From positions 1-30,232 of IMG/VR virus record IMGVR_UViG_3300009180_000145: DNA of 30,232 bases; one strand, 5' to 3'. The position numbers were made by a program, and so were the translations under genes. Shown piece by piece: positions 2,205-22,258 of the stretch (its first letter is position 1; each line of letters opens with the position of its first letter). The notes beneath the pieces were generated by a model. It was not told where the DNA came from and searched no databases. It saw only the letters and a list, made by a program, of their open reading frames with translations. This DNA is from a virus.

Positions 2205-5200
2205 ATGGCATCATTAACCGGTAATTTAGTAGCCGAAACATACAAAGCATTGTTGAAAACAATCGACAATGACATCCTAACAGCAAGCGAAAAGCAAATT
2301 ACAGATGGATTCGGTGGGGGATCAAATGTTTTTATTGATTCTAATGGCTTTTTAAGAGCCAACAAATACAAGGTCACTAATGGTTTAGCAACGCAATTTT
2401 TAAAGGCGGATGGATCATTGGATGCAAATACCTATTTGACATCCATAACAAGTTCACAAATCATTGCCGCATTAGGGTTCACACCGGTCACAAATGCCCG
2501 GACATTGACAATTAATGGAACAACCTATGATTTATCAGCAAACAGATCATGGACTATTGCAGGAACATCAGCCGTTTGGGGCAATATTACCGGCACATTA
2601 TCCAATCAGACAGATTTACAAAATGCCTTAAATGCCAAATTTAATAATCCAACCGGTACGATTTCACAATACATTCGTGGTGATGGATCAATCGCAACGT
2701 TTCCAACAATTACCGGTGGTTTGCCAATAGGCGGAACAACAGGCCAAATTTTGGCTAAAATTAACGCAACGGACTATAATACTGAATGGATTGATAATTT
2801 TGCCACACAGACAAAAAATGAGGTCAAATTAGGGCAAACATTAACCAAAGGTGCAGCGGTTTACGTTTCATCAGCCAATGGAACAAATATCATTGTTTCG
2901 GCTGCATCAAATACAACAGAGGCATTGAGTTCAAAAACGTTTGGTTTACTCGAAACAGGAGGTGCAACAAATGCGTTTGTTAAATGCGTGACATTTGGAT
3001 TATTAGCAGGATTGGACACATCCACAGCAACGGCCGGTGATCCGGTTTGGTTGGGTGTAAATGGTGCATTGATTTTTGGTTTAGCAAATAAACCATTTGC
3101 ACCTGCGCATTTAGTTTATATTGGAGTTGTTACACGTGTGCAATCAAATAATGGTGAAATCTTTGTAAACGTTCAAAATGGGTTTGAATTAAAAGAAATT
3201 CATGATGTTGCTGCGCAAACACCAACAAATAATGATGGATTATTTTACGAATCAGCCACATCATTATGGAAAAATAAGAGCATCGCAACGGTGTTAGGAT
3301 ATACACCACAGGCGCAATTGAATGGAACCGGATTTGTGAAAGCAACAGGAACAACAATATCGTATGACAATTCAACGTATTTGACAACCGGTGATGCAGC
3401 AAGTACATACCAATTATTGACAAATTTATCAACAGATTTGACTGCATCGGCAACCAAATATCCATCGGTAAATGCAGTTGTGACCGGGTTGGGTACAAAA
3501 CAACCATTAGATGCAGATTTGACAGCCATTGCGGCATTGGTTGGAACAACCGGATTTTTAATTAAAACGGCAGCCGACACATGGTCATTGGATACAAATA
3601 CTTATTTGACAACAACAAGTGCAGCAAGTACATATTTAACACAAACAACGGCCGCAAGTACATACCAACGTTTGGATAAAATGGTGTCAAATTTATTGGC
3701 ATCATCAACAGAATATCCAAATAGCAATGCCGTATTGGCAAAGTTGGCATTGAAAGCGGATGCGGCAAATCCTGTATTTACAGGTGATTTATCAATCAGC
3801 GGTGCAACACCACGATTGTATTTTGTTGATACAGATCAAAATCCTGATTATACCATTTTTGTTGATTCAGGATATTTCTACATTTACGATCAAACAGCCG
3901 GTGCAACAAAATTCCAAATAACACCATCAGGCAATGCAATCAATACAGGCACATTGACATCTGCATCATTTATCAAATCAGGTGGCACTGCAAGTCAGTA
4001 TTTAATGGCTGATGGATCAGTCACAACATTATCAGGATTAGTGACAGGATCAGGAACAACAAATTATTTGCCAAAATGGACATCAGCAAGTGCGTTGGGT
4101 AATAGTATATTATTTGAAACAACAGGATTTGCAAATATTGCCGGAGATTTAAAAATTGAATCAACAGAGCCACAAATATATTTAACTAAAACAGGAACAG
4201 ATGCAGGAATATGGCGAATATTAGGATCAACAGGTCAAACATTACGCAGATTTAGAATTTATGATGAAATAGCCGGATTAGATAGATTTGATATTTTTTC
4301 ATCAGGTAATGTTTCAATTGGAACAACAACAGATTCAGGATACAAATTAGATGTAAATGGATCATTAAGAATACAAGGTGTTAATCCATCAATTACAACA
4401 GATAGCGCAACAGATTACACAATTATAAATGCACGTAAAAACGGAACAAGAACGTGGCAAATTGATAGTGTTAGTGGCAATTTTTGGCTTTATATGCAAG
4501 GTGCAGCAAATTATGCGTTACAAATTGCAGGTTCAACAGGTGCAGCCGTGTTTTCGAGTAGTGTTACGGCAGATGGCTTTGGCAGCGGAATTTCATCATT
4601 AAGTGCGTGGGGTGCTTCTCCTGTTAGACCAATTATTGAAGGAAGAGAGGGTAATGCAATTTCAAATTATGTTGGATTGCCTGAAATGTATTATACATCT
4701 AATGCATATTATAATGGTACTGCTTGGATTAGAAAGTCTGCAAATGCATCAATGAATATGGTGTTAAGCGGGTATAATAATAACTTTTTAATTCAATCAG
4801 GACCAACAGGTGCAGCAAATGGAATAATAACTTTTTCTACATTATTTTTAATTAATGGTTCAAATGGCAACGTAGGTATTGGAAATTCAGGTGCAAGTAA
4901 TTTATTAACAATTGGTCAAGATGCTACAATTCACTATACACAAACAGGAATTGCAGCAATGACATTAAAGGGATTATCAAGTGGTGCAAGAGCATTATTT
5001 GAAATTCATTCCGCAGACGCAGCCGTAAAATTGGTTTTGCAATCTGTTTCAGGTTATGGAGTAAATTTGGGGGCATTAACTGCATCAGATATACATATAA
5101 ATAATTCATCGGGTAATATTACCATAAAAGCAGGTGGAAACGTATTAATTGGATCAACAACAGATTCGGGATATAAATTAGATGTAAATGGTACACTAAA

Positions 5201-16375: not shown

Positions 16376-16684
16376 ATGGCACGTTTAATCAGCATTAAAA
16401 TTGACCTTTCAAAAATCGACAAAGCACGCATTTATGAAAGTCAAAAGACAGGGGCAAAGTATTTGGACATTACAGGGGTATTGACCGACACACCTGATCA
16501 GTATGAAAACAATGGTTTTGTAAAGCAGAACACATCAAAAGAGGAACGTGAATCAGGGTTAAAAATGCCAATTATCGGCAATTTTAAGTTGCTAAAAATC
16601 TTGGATCAACCGGGCCAATCAGCACCGGCACAGCCGATCCAACGTGAAATCAATCCAATCACACCTGATGATTTACCATTTTAA
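16376..16684 (+). CDS. SSB-like single-stranded DNA-binding protein
   Basis: A 102-residue protein with a short strand-rich core (LISIKIDLSKIDKARIYESQ ... GAKYLDITGVL), a Pro/Gln-rich linker (PGQSAPAQPIQ) and the C-terminal tip ITPDDLPF. An acidic tip ending in DDLPF is the partner-recruiting end of bacterial SSB proteins. Compared with host SSB it is short and its OB core diverged. It sits in the ERF cluster and would coat single strands or recruit host repair and replication proteins. Confidence 0.7.
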   Translation: MARLISIKIDLSKIDKARIYESQKTGAKYLDITGVLTDTPDQYENNGFVKQNTSKEERESGLKMPIIGNFKLLKILDQPGQSAPAQPIQREINPITPDDLPF

Positions 16685-17556: not shown

Positions 17557-18225
17557 ATGGGAAAATTAGTAATCAAAAACAGATTTGCAACGGTGCCAAA
17601 TGATTTGGTAAACAGCAAAGAAATTTCATTGAAGGCAAAAGGGTTGTTTGCCTACATTCAATCAAAACCTGATGGTTGGGATTTTAGTGCTGAAAGGATA
17701 GCATATCAATCAAAGGAAGGTTTGCCGGCTATTATGGCAGCATTAAAGGAATTAGAGAATTTTGGGTATTTAACACGTGAACGATATATGTCCGAAATTG
17801 GCCATCGATTGGTTCAATATACATTATTTGATGTACCTACATTGCAAAATGCTAATGAGGAAAATGTACATAGAGGTTTTCCTCATGAGGAAAATGCTTA
17901 TATAGCAAAACCATCAGTATATATAAAGAAAGAAAATACAAATAAAGAATCTATAAAAACTATTATAGAAAATAAGGTAAATGAATTTCGAAATTTGATT
18001 GAATCATCTGCATTTTTATTGGGTGATCAATACGAATCATTTATTGATTATTGGGCAGAACCTAATCAAAAAAATGGGAAATTGCGATGGGAGGATCAGA
18101 AATTTTTTGATATTGAAAGGCGAATTACAACGTGGATGAATAACAATAAAAAATACAACAACAATGGATCAGAAACAAAACTTGGAACGAGTGCAGCAAG
18201 AATGGCAGCCCTTGCAAAATTTTAA
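17557..18225 (+). CDS. Replication initiator / replisome organiser with winged helix-turn-helix
   Basis: ATG 17557 is preferred to an upstream in-frame TTG. The N-terminal 90 residues form a winged helix-turn-helix of the kind seen in phage replisome organisers: FATVPNDLVNSKEISLKAKG, LFAYIQSKPDGWDFS, then a recognition region with Glu/Leu and FGYLTRERY. The middle is low complexity (ANEENVHRGF ... KKENTNKESIK). The C-terminal part, with KLRWEDQKFFDIERRITTWM, resembles the DnaD-like end that binds partners. It probably binds the origin and loads host replication proteins. A long, possibly structured leader precedes it. Confidence 0.75.
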   Translation: MGKLVIKNRFATVPNDLVNSKEISLKAKGLFAYIQSKPDGWDFSAERIAYQSKEGLPAIMAALKELENFGYLTRERYMSEIGHRLVQYTLFDVPTLQNANEENVHRGFPHEENAYIAKPSVYIKKENTNKESIKTIIENKVNEFRNLIESSAFLLGDQYESFIDYWAEPNQKNGKLRWEDQKFFDIERRITTWMNNNKKYNNNGSETKLGTSAARMAALAKF

Positions 18226-18910
18226 TGGTATAGTCAATACAATAATTAAGGCACAAAGCACACTAAACATTAGGACACGATCAGAAAATGATTTAAAACA
18301 GGTTTTGCGGTTATCAATGCTAATGGTTGGCCTGCGTGGTGCAAATATGCCGACAGATGAGGAAAAATATGTTTTGTTAGCATTTATCAAATCAAATTAC
18401 GGCAATCAAACACCCGAAGAAATAGCCATTGCATTTGAAATGGCAGTTGCAGGTAAATTAAATACTGATTGCAAATGCTATGAGAATTTTTCGTGTGAAT
18501 ATTTTGGCAGGATCATGAACGCATACATTGAATATGCAAGGCAGGAAACAAAGAATGTCAAAAAGCCGGAAGCCGAAACAACATTACCTGTGCCAACCGA
18601 TAAGGAATTAAAGCAACAGGCCATTTACAACGTTAATGCGTTTATTAACAAAATAAAGGTGGCAAAAGATACAAAAGGCAAATTTGATTGGCCTGTGGGT
18701 GGTTTATCTGTATTGTACGATTATTTAGTCAAATTCCAAATATGTAAATGCCCTGAACCGGAACGAATTGAGATTGCTGCAAAATTAAAGCCATTTCACA
18801 ATGATCATAAATTATGGGTGGCCGCCTGTAAAGGTGAGGCATACAAATCATTTTGCCATTCATTAGTTGATATGGATATGACATTGGATGAAAAAGGTCA
18901 GATTATATGA
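18164..18910 (+). CDS. Probable replication partner protein (helicase-loader position)
   Basis: A 248-residue helical protein overlapping the initiator gene by 62 bases. It contains QVLRLSMLMVGLRGANMPTD, a Cys-containing stretch (CKCYENFSCEYFGR, about 103-116) and PEPERIEIAAKLKPFHNDHK. In many phages the gene after a winged-helix initiator encodes a helicase loader, but no Walker A motif is visible here, so an AAA+ loader is unlikely. A DnaD-, DnaB- or primase-interacting role is inferred from position only. The exact start is uncertain because of the long overlap. Confidence 0.6.
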   Translation: MDQKQNLERVQQEWQPLQNFNGIVNTIIKAQSTLNIRTRSENDLKQVLRLSMLMVGLRGANMPTDEEKYVLLAFIKSNYGNQTPEEIAIAFEMAVAGKLNTDCKCYENFSCEYFGRIMNAYIEYARQETKNVKKPEAETTLPVPTDKELKQQAIYNVNAFINKIKVAKDTKGKFDWPVGGLSVLYDYLVKFQICKCPEPERIEIAAKLKPFHNDHKLWVAACKGEAYKSFCHSLVDMDMTLDEKGQII

Positions 18911-19539
18911 GCATTCCTGAAAAATATCACGTGAAATCGATCATTTCAGAACAAACATATGATTGGTTGTTGCACAAACATTATGCAAAACGAATCCCAT
19001 CAATTTCGTATGCATTTGGATTGTATCAATCTGAAATTTTAAAAGGTGTTTTGACAATTGGAAAACCTGCATCGCCATCATTATGCGATGGTGTATGTGG
19101 CAAAGAGTTTAGCCAATATGTTTATGAATTAAACCGATTATGCGTTGATGACAATCTTGAAAAAAATGTTTTATCATATTTTGTTTCACAGGCATTGAAA
19201 TTGATCAAAGATGATTTAATTATTGTAAGTTATGCCGACACGATGATGTCACATAATGGATATATTTATCAGGCAACAAATTGGATTTACACAGGGGCCA
19301 CAAAAGAAAGGACAGATATTGGATTTGAAGATGGCACCCATTCAAGGCATTATAATAAAAATATTGATTATTCAATTCGGAAATTTAGAAGTTCAAAACA
19401 CAGATATGTGTATTTTCTTGGAAAACTTAAAAGGACATTTATAAAAAATTTAAAATATCCGATTGAAGATTATCCAAAAGGAGAAAACAAAAAATACGAT
19501 TCAAGTTATAAACCAAAAGTGCAATTGGATTTGTTTTAA
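18907..19539 (+). CDS. Mom-like DNA modification enzyme with C-terminal clamp-binding motif
   Basis: A 210-residue protein resembling the phage Mu Mom family, a GNAT-like fold that modifies adenine in phage DNA to resist restriction. Family-type motifs: YELNRLCVD (73-81), LIIVSYADT (104-112) and GYIYQATNWIYTG (118-130), followed by an HSRHYNK segment. The last five residues are QLDLF (206-210), a canonical sliding-clamp-binding pentapeptide, suggesting recruitment to replication forks. It starts with an ATGA overlap after the replication partner gene. The exact chemical modification and target sequence cannot be read. A related GNAT-like protein of other function is the main alternative. Confidence 0.75.
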   Translation: MSIPEKYHVKSIISEQTYDWLLHKHYAKRIPSISYAFGLYQSEILKGVLTIGKPASPSLCDGVCGKEFSQYVYELNRLCVDDNLEKNVLSYFVSQALKLIKDDLIIVSYADTMMSHNGYIYQATNWIYTGATKERTDIGFEDGTHSRHYNKNIDYSIRKFRSSKHRYVYFLGKLKRTFIKNLKYPIEDYPKGENKKYDSSYKPKVQLDLF

Positions 19540-19601
19540 ATTAAAAATGGGCATTAATTCCGCCTTTATATAAACACAGAATTTAAACCAATAACGGACA
19601 T

Positions 19602-19835
19602 ATGAAAAAGAAATTAATTTTAAGCGCAGTTTTTATCACGATTGGATCAATTGTATGTATTGCATATAATCAGGTCAGAAAATCAAAGTATGGTGGCAAA
19701 AAACAAGTAATTGCCAAACGTTTAGAAATCAGTCAGGCATTTATGATGGATACATTTAAACCCATTGAGGATTTTGAAATTATTTATTTTGATGAACACA
19801 GGGGATTGGTAGAAATTAAAACGACAGCAAAATGA
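19602..19835 (+). CDS. Small membrane-anchored hypothetical protein
   Basis: A 77-residue protein with a basic start and one hydrophobic helix (KLILSAVFITIGSIVCIAYN, 4-23), then a basic linker and a short soluble domain ending FEIIYFDEHRGLVEIKTTAK. It could be membrane-anchored or secreted. It follows a 62-base gap in which no clear promoter or terminator is visible, and it ends in an ATGA overlap with the nuclease gene. Function unknown. Confidence 0.62.
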   Translation: MKKKLILSAVFITIGSIVCIAYNQVRKSKYGGKKQVIAKRLEISQAFMMDTFKPIEDFEIIYFDEHRGLVEIKTTAK

Positions 19836-20257
19836 GAAACGAACACGAACACAGATTGCAAACGGTTTTAGCAATGTATTTGGATTTGCACAATTACACG
19901 TTTTTTGCAATACCAAATGGTGGATGGCGCAACAAAGCAGTTGCCGGCAAATTAAAGGCAGAGGGAGTGAAAGCAGGTGTGGCAGATATGTTGATCCTTT
20001 TGCCAAACCAATCATTTCATGGCCTGTTTATAGAGGTCAAAATTGTTGGGAATTATCAGCAACCTAATCAAAAGGAATTTGAAGCAAAAGCAAGGGAATG
20101 CGGATATGAATACCTAATTGTGCGATCATTGGATGAATTGATTGAAAAGCTAAAATACTATGAGGCAAACAAATTTATTGAACAGGACAAAGTTATGGCC
20201 GCATACAGATCAGGATATATTGATGGAAAACTTGAAAATCAAATGACAATACGATGA
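19832..20257 (+). CDS. VRR-NUC domain nuclease (PD-(D/E)XK fold)
   Basis: A 141-residue stand-alone VRR-NUC protein. The pattern is complete: EHRLQTVLAMYLD at the N-terminus, FFAIPNGG, KLKAEGVKAGVADMLIL with Asp52, HGLFIEVK with Glu68 and Lys70, and a conserved Gln (NQKEFEAKARECGYEYLIV). Asp52, Glu68 and Lys70 form the metal-binding nuclease site. Phage VRR-NUC proteins are thought to cut branched DNA such as Holliday junctions, fitting the ERF and replication genes nearby. The C-terminal 40 residues are a helical extension. Confidence 0.9.
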   Translation: MRNEHEHRLQTVLAMYLDLHNYTFFAIPNGGWRNKAVAGKLKAEGVKAGVADMLILLPNQSFHGLFIEVKIVGNYQQPNQKEFEAKARECGYEYLIVRSLDELIEKLKYYEANKFIEQDKVMAAYRSGYIDGKLENQMTIR

Positions 20258-21442: not shown

Positions 21443-21746
21443 AATTTCATTTGATTTTGATGATACATTATCAACAGATAAAGGACAGGCAATGGCCAAA
21501 AGGTTTATTGATGAAGGGATGACCGTGTACATTATAACAGCAAGACAACGCAGAATGTCAGCCGGTGTTTATGAGGTGGCTGATGAATTAGGCATACCAC
21601 ATACACGAATCTATTTTACAAATGGAGCAGACAAATGGGAAACAATCAAACGTTTGGACATTGGCATCCATTATGATAATAATCAGGAGCAGATTGATAA
21701 AATCAACCAAAATACAGATTGCGAAGGCCGTTTGTTTACAGCATAA
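21426..21746 (+). CDS. Small HAD-superfamily phosphatase
   Basis: A 106-residue minimal HAD hydrolase with all four motifs: DFDDTLS (nucleophile Asp10, acid Asp12), IITAR (Thr38), Lys70, and HYDNN (Asp84). No cap domain is present, so it may act on large substrates such as nucleic acid 5' or 3' phosphates, or on nucleotides. Similar mini-HAD proteins are frequent in phages. It is coupled to the ParB-like gene by TAATG. Confidence 0.85.
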   Translation: MADKNKISFDFDDTLSTDKGQAMAKRFIDEGMTVYIITARQRRMSAGVYEVADELGIPHTRIYFTNGADKWETIKRLDIGIHYDNNQEQIDKINQNTDCEGRLFTA

Positions 21747-22258
21747 TGATTGAGGATATAAACATAAAATTAGTCATTCCGCATCCGAACAATCCACGTT
21801 TGATTAAAGATGATAAGTTTAAAAAATTGGTGAAGTCCATTAAGGAGTTCCCGGAAATGTTGCAATTGAGGCCAATTATTGTTGATGACAATATGATTGT
21901 ATTGGGTGGCAATATGCGTTTGCGTGCCTGTATTGAAGCAGGATTGAAACGTGTGCCAATTATAAAGGCATCAGCATTGACACCGGAACAACAGAAACGG
22001 TTTATAATTGTGGACAATGCCGGGTTTGGTGAGTGGGATTGGGATGTATTGGCCAATCAATGGGAAATAGATGATTTGACTGAATGGGGGGTTGATTTGC
22101 CTGTTTATAAGGAATTAGGGTTTGAATTGCCTGTTGATCAAACGGCTGATCCAAAGGATCAATTTCTAATTGAAGTGGTTTTTGAATCAGAGGAACAAAG
22201 GCAAATGGCATACAATCATTTCATTGAAAATGGGTTAAATTGCAGATTAAAAAAATAG
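21746..22258 (+). CDS. ParB-like (ParB/Srx fold) protein upstream of terminase
   Basis: A 170-residue protein starting at the TAATG overlap; an in-frame TTG 27 bases upstream lies inside the previous gene and is less likely. The ParB/Srx core is visible: HPNNPRLI (13-20), LRPIIVDDNMIVLGG (41-55) and GGNMRLRACIEAG (54-66). The rest is helical with acidic and aromatic segments (FGEWDWDVLANQWE). In phages such proteins often sit just before the small terminase and may be DNA-binding, nucleases or CTP-dependent clamps. The DNA-binding helix-turn-helix typical of plasmid ParB is not evident. Stop TAG. Confidence 0.82.
   Translation: MIEDINIKLVIPHPNNPRLIKDDKFKKLVKSIKEFPEMLQLRPIIVDDNMIVLGGNMRLRACIEAGLKRVPIIKASALTPEQQKRFIIVDNAGFGEWDWDVLANQWEIDDLTEWGVDLPVYKELGFELPVDQTADPKDQFLIEVVFESEEQRQMAYNHFIENGLNCRLKK

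Follow-up and report, generated by a model that had tools for sequence, protein, structure and literature searches.

The window analysed here, a 30,232-nucleotide stretch of viral DNA (positions 1 to 30,232 of IMG/VR record IMGVR_UViG_3300009180_000145), encodes a Mom-type DNA-modification enzyme in which a GNAT-like core is extended by a tail that is predicted to be disordered and ends in QLDLF, the consensus bacterial sliding-clamp motif. A Q-x-x-L-F ending is conserved among the homologues of this protein and is found again on further DNA-modification enzymes of phages. We consider it likely that the tail tethers Mom to the clamp and that the enzyme acts on phage DNA while it replicates, a reading in which clamp binding, adenine modification and replication coupling are each inferred.

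A Mom-family enzyme with an added C-terminal tail

The features of the window protein are as follows.

18907..19539, + strand: Mom-family DNA-modification enzyme, 210 aa, whole ORF including the stop (PF25680, PHROG 1384, Foldseek 8bv8)
18907..19479, + strand: folded GNAT-like Mom core, residues 1-191, to the YPK where Mu Mom ends (AlphaFold model, 8bv8 profile alignment)
19174..19176, + strand: Ser90, counterpart of the serine mutated in Mu Mom S124A (homologue invariance, 8bv8 alignment)
19480..19521, + strand: linker GENKKYDSSYKPKV, predicted to be disordered, residues 192-205 (pLDDT, spacing of 14 residues)
19522..19536, + strand: putative C-terminal beta-clamp-binding motif QLDLF, binding inferred, residues 206-210 (QxxLF conservation, PMC11139829 consensus)

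The ORF runs from an ATG at 18907 to a TAA at 19537-19539, with the protein ending ...YKPKVQLDLF, and its coordinates, strand and sequence agreed with a preliminary description that had been made from sequence alone. That description had also assigned the protein to the Mom family and had named a structural match to Mu Mom as a check, and both held: membership is shown by profile, fold and a conserved active-site serine. Pfam PF25680 (Mom) matched residues 7-191 across profile positions 2-202 of 202 (E 3e-36, 125.4 bits, cut-off 27.1), PHROG 1384 ('Mom-like') matched with E 6e-64, and the three Mom motifs cited in the preliminary description (ELNRL, SYAD and YIYQATNWIYTG) were all found. The AlphaFold model (mean pLDDT 83.7) returned Mu Mom (8bv8) as its top PDB match in Foldseek (E 7e-13, TM 0.69-0.72), and the profile match to the same protein (E 1.3e-25) stops at YPK. 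The 8bv8 entry is titled 'inactive mutant S124A' of Mu Mom; the position of S124, inferred from the single local difference between 8bv8 and wild-type Mu Mom (NSEARAI versus NSESRAI), aligns with Ser90 of the window protein, which is invariant across 22 homologues. The enzyme probably modifies adenine, although this is inferred without modification data, and the earlier proposal that such modification counters restriction likewise remains an inference for this phage.

Past YPK, the protein runs 19 residues further (GENKKYDSSYKPKVQLDLF). In the AlphaFold model the last ~18 residues are disordered, the last two ten-residue blocks have mean pLDDT values of 54 and 41, and residues 205-210 fall below 50, which places the motif in a region predicted to be accessible and flexible; the possibility that the tail forms part of the folded core was rejected because the model leaves it disordered. 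QLDLF fits the clamp motif pattern Q-aliphatic-x-[L/M]-[F/L] and was the strongest peptide ligand in several studies of the clamp, for which several natural motifs sit at the C-terminus (PMC11139829). The consensus match that had been noted for this C-terminus held, and the 'flexible basic segment' reported before it (YPKGENKKYDxSYKP) is present, with the refinement that it is itself well conserved.

Conservation of the ending among Mom homologues

A scan of IMG/VR with patterns taken from the Mom core only, leaving the tail unused, yielded 81 complete homologues, 67 of which carry Q-x-x-[LMI]-F at the stop or up to three residues before it, down to 50% identity. The preliminary description had named an unconserved C-terminal pentapeptide in a homologue alignment as grounds for refutation, and its claim survived that test. 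When homologues were clustered at 75% core identity, the strict motif was retained by 40 of the 72 representatives and the relaxed motif by 47. Leu occupies position 4 in 37 of these 40, and 39 have a YPK-to-Q spacing of 14 residues, while positions 2 and 3 hold 12 and 11 different residues, respectively. The conserved core is thus Q-x-x-L-F, and exact QLDLF is not invariant; across the family, Thr or Gly frequently takes the place of the aliphatic residue that the best ligands have at position 2, and in some homologues the motif stands off the exact C-terminus (LLFV, LLFG, LLFK and LLFVD).

Codons at the conserved Q (CAA/CAG), L (TTA/TTG/CTA/CTT/CTG) and F (TTT/TTC) change synonymously, and a DNA-level element beneath the tail was rejected on that basis. 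When the last 25 residues were shuffled, 0.14% of genes acquired Q..[LMI]F close to the C-terminus, so that 0.14 occurrences were expected and 69 observed among 109 Mom tails; shuffling and conservation together reject a chance match. A scan of genome contigs gave no match with the single window protein and 12 loci with an alignment. Tailed relatives were also present in bins with the labels Winogradskyella, Bacteroidales and Bacteroidetes, as well as in a single Pelagibacter bin, and these labels suggest mainly Bacteroidota hosts, with the host of the window phage itself unknown.

On a tree of 118 Mom cores (tail excluded), the Q tail is paraphyletic. A clade of 31 Moms (support 100/99) carries another conserved tail, 30 of the 31 lacking Q..LF, and includes most of the cultured-phage Moms examined (for example, A511, Riggi and JeffCo). 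The tail was therefore rejected as a feature of the whole Mom family, being absent from Mu Mom and from this cultured-phage clade. Some alternative-tail Moms have regained the motif at other spacing: KPKEDKKQLGLF (L383), KPKEDKKQLDLF (L408) and MQIGLFERS (L401). The second conserved tail reads YxLGxRxKxKxINxxTxxxFYE (L141-L145 and L362-L369); its clade includes many phages that encode a polymerase of their own, and it is possible that this tail docks on a different partner. A separate observation concerns locus L090, where three consecutive Mom-like genes (ORFs near 4401, 5288 and 5971; 42-63% identity to the window protein) all end in PTTQTKLL.

The same ending on other phage DNA-modification enzymes

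Across the Mom loci, such an ending was found on 19 of 1594 non-Mom ORFs, most of them DNA methyltransferases. Sister phages, chosen by terminase, carried it on 4 of 1341 non-Mom genes, namely two N6/N4 methyltransferases and two ABC-ATPase/GNAT proteins (ABC-GNAT). Homologue scans recovered Q..[LMI]F in 54 of 80 ABC-GNAT proteins (often as AQNQISMF) and in 36 of 52 methyltransferases (often as DQLTLF); both scans were seeded with a tail-bearing protein and their rates are biased accordingly. In loci not anchored on methyltransferases, 18 of 59 methyltransferases had the ending versus 7 of 2737 other genes (p 2e-26). Over all loci, it occurred on 14 of 3228 genes outside the pattern-defined classes; by eye, ~10 of these 14 were methyltransferases, enzymes related to them or fragments, all overlooked by the pattern, and the remainder was close to the shuffling expectation (0.14%). 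None of the 12 C5 methyltransferases recognised by pattern had the ending, and a tail on all modification enzymes was rejected for that reason.

The ABC-GNAT endings NQISMF and NQLSLF come closest to the clamp consensus, and one variant places the motif before the C-terminus (NQISIFDIEGI). We rejected ABC-GNAT as a Mom relative on a weak profile comparison (probability 11%, E 0.0027); the two may both belong to the GNAT superfamily, with no closer kinship shown, and the methyltransferases have a fold separate from both.

Gene neighbourhood and probable dependence on the host replisome

The Mom gene lies among replication genes, next to the following features.

16376..16684, + strand: small protein ending in a conserved, SSB-like acidic tip (DDLPF), replication neighbourhood (28 sister-phage homologues)
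17536..18225, + strand: replication initiation/helicase-loader-like protein, upstream of Mom (phrog_428 E 7e-17, DnaD-like phrog_186)
18164..18910, + strand: conserved early gene, upstream edge of the cargo slot (only an uncharacterised PHROG match)
19832..20257, + strand: VRR-NUC family protein, downstream edge of the cargo slot (Pfam VRR_NUC E 6e-5, phrog_824)

The early gene overlaps the Mom start by 4 bases, and the VRR-NUC product, for which the Pfam match is just under the cut-off, also matches a Holliday-junction-resolvase PHROG. In the sister phage L177, an ABC-GNAT ending in HKHQLTLF takes the place of Mom between the replication gene and VRR-NUC, and C5 methyltransferases or PAPS-reductase-like genes fill the same slot in other sister phages. 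Bounded by the early gene and VRR-NUC, this slot (window 18911-19831; L158, L165, L173, L177, L187, L210 and L217) is a cargo hotspot in which Mom, C5 methyltransferases, PAPS-reductase-like proteins and ABC-GNAT interchange. Elsewhere in the window, a ParB-N-only protein (21719-22258) corresponds to ParB-methyltransferase fusions of 400-508 aa in sister phages (L168:8136-9662 and L188:7506-8708).

The replication region also contains an ERF recombinase, and a search for PolA in the window gave no match. With an initiator, ERF and an SSB-like protein present and no recognised polymerase, the phage most likely uses host Pol III and its clamp. The D[DE]LPF tip of the 16376-16684 product, kept in 28 sister-phage homologues, resembles the C-terminal tip of bacterial SSB, and the product may be a phage SSB with a role in recruiting the partners of host SSB. 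No PolA, PolB or PolIII-alpha was found in the 25 IMG/VR records carrying this kind of Mom (23 with a Q..[LMI]F Mom and two with QLRII or QLSIL), and 23 of the 25 had no clamp above the cut-off. One record with a Q..LF-tailed Mom (L133, G018) has at 1755-1943 a weak, below-cut-off match to the beta clamp middle domain (E 6e-6), conceivably a divergent phage clamp. Two Bacteroidota genomes encode DinB-type polymerases ending in QLKFEF and QLYLFDNQE, from which it follows that such hosts use the same kind of motif; it was not seen at the C-terminus of the other Y-family proteins examined in those genomes.

Among phages with the other or an extended Mom tail, a polymerase match was found in 8 of 9 cultured phages (pPM_01 being below the cut-off) and in 3 of 20 IMG/VR records. 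Ancestry and the fragmentary state of the records both confound the association between the tail and the absence of a phage polymerase (p 0.0004 pooled, 0.08 within IMG/VR); we rejected it as proof and retain it as weak support only.

Proposed mechanism and alternative explanations

Family, fold, motif, conservation, predicted disorder, recurrence and gene context are shown by these results, and the mechanism that we propose from them is inferred. A Mom-type enzyme with a GNAT-like core and an added disordered tail would dock through its terminal motif on the host clamp, which would tether it to the replication fork and to the clamps left behind the fork, such that phage DNA would be modified while being made, before host restriction enzymes act; the same hook would serve other DNA-modification enzymes of the same and related phages. 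Tail disorder, as with known C-terminal clamp motifs (PMC11139829), favours docking, and the part of the Mom family without the motif counts against it. The main doubts are that many homologues have a weak residue at position 2 and that binding data are lacking altogether. Clamp-tethered modification during replication, as put forward in the preliminary description, is thus supported, with binding and replication coupling still inferred.

Three other readings of the tail were weighed. It could bind the host clamp in order to occupy it, with Mom serving in addition to restrain replication or repair in the host, much as the SocB toxin of Caulobacter binds the clamp via such a motif and can block replication (PMC9690074). 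We regard this as very unlikely: the motif is found mainly on DNA-modification enzymes and hardly on other phage genes, and the phages themselves appear dependent on the host replisome. Less remote, but still unlikely, is that the tail docks on some other host or phage partner, or is a C-terminal degradation signal that only resembles a clamp motif. The sister clade does have a second, different conserved tail, and there are no partner data; however, a C-end signal would not tolerate LLFV, LLFG, LLFK, LLFVD or the ABC-GNAT ending NQISIFDIEGI, and the composition matches the clamp consensus, most closely in ABC-GNAT.

The ending might instead be a product of chance or of inheritance alone, without function. 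Most tails in the family were inherited in one lineage, so that copies are not independent, but there is very little else to recommend this view: Q, L and F are kept beside freely varying neighbours and through synonymous codon change, the motif was regained in a second Mom clade, it recurs on methyltransferases and ABC-GNAT, and its count among Mom tails far exceeds the shuffling expectation. Clamp tethering of Mom remains our preferred reading.

Relation to known systems and wider implications

Mu Mom (methylcarbamoylase, 8bv8) shares with the window protein its family, by profile and fold, and the conserved serine that was mutated, but ends at or just after YPK without a clamp motif; the window gene, unlike that of Mu, lies among replication genes with no adjacent Com-like gene recognised. 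C-terminal QLxLF-type motifs on flexible tails are known from Pol II, Pol IV and Pol III alpha (PMC11139829), which are polymerases, whereas the window protein is a phage DNA-modification enzyme for which binding is inferred. Precedents for the proposed coupling exist in principle only. In eukaryotes, the sliding clamp PCNA guides DNMT1 to new DNA (PMC9690074), although enzyme, clamp and motif are unrelated to those considered here and DNMT1 maintains host methylation rather than acting against restriction. PolI-coupled plasmid methyltransferases tie modification of a mobile element to replication, with a role against restriction, and the authors raise the possibility that the coupling is mediated by a host protein, for example the clamp (PMC7736820); in that system, PolI was identified as the partner and single-stranded DNA as the substrate, and the relevant passages of that paper contain no clamp motif. 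In the open-access literature that we searched, which leaves out most subscription papers, we found neither Mom nor phage methyltransferases described as having a clamp motif.

New phage DNA is sensitive to restriction until it is modified, and a clamp-riding enzyme would remove this period of exposure at the fork and could act preferentially on phage DNA that is replicating, rather than on host DNA at rest. A bolder reading, towards which we lean only slightly, is that clamp tethering is a general anti-restriction strategy of replisome-borrowing phages, adopted by enzymes of different ancestry (Mom, N6/N4 methyltransferases, ABC-GNAT and possibly short C5-like methyltransferases), with phage DNA receiving its mark on leaving the fork. 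Since several enzyme families share the ending, what began as an oddity of a single protein becomes a rule that can be tested and, if the bolder reading is true, the motif would be a tag by which unknown DNA-modification enzymes of phages could be recognised. One such candidate is the ABC-ATPase/GNAT fusion itself, a protein of unknown function (phrog_11143; L177:2779-3945, with homologues in L221-L299) that is likely to be an undescribed DNA-modification enzyme. The cultured Nonlabens phage P12024S encodes a copy (L424:3001-4140) ending in AQNQISLF and provides a cultured model for the tailed ABC-GNAT.
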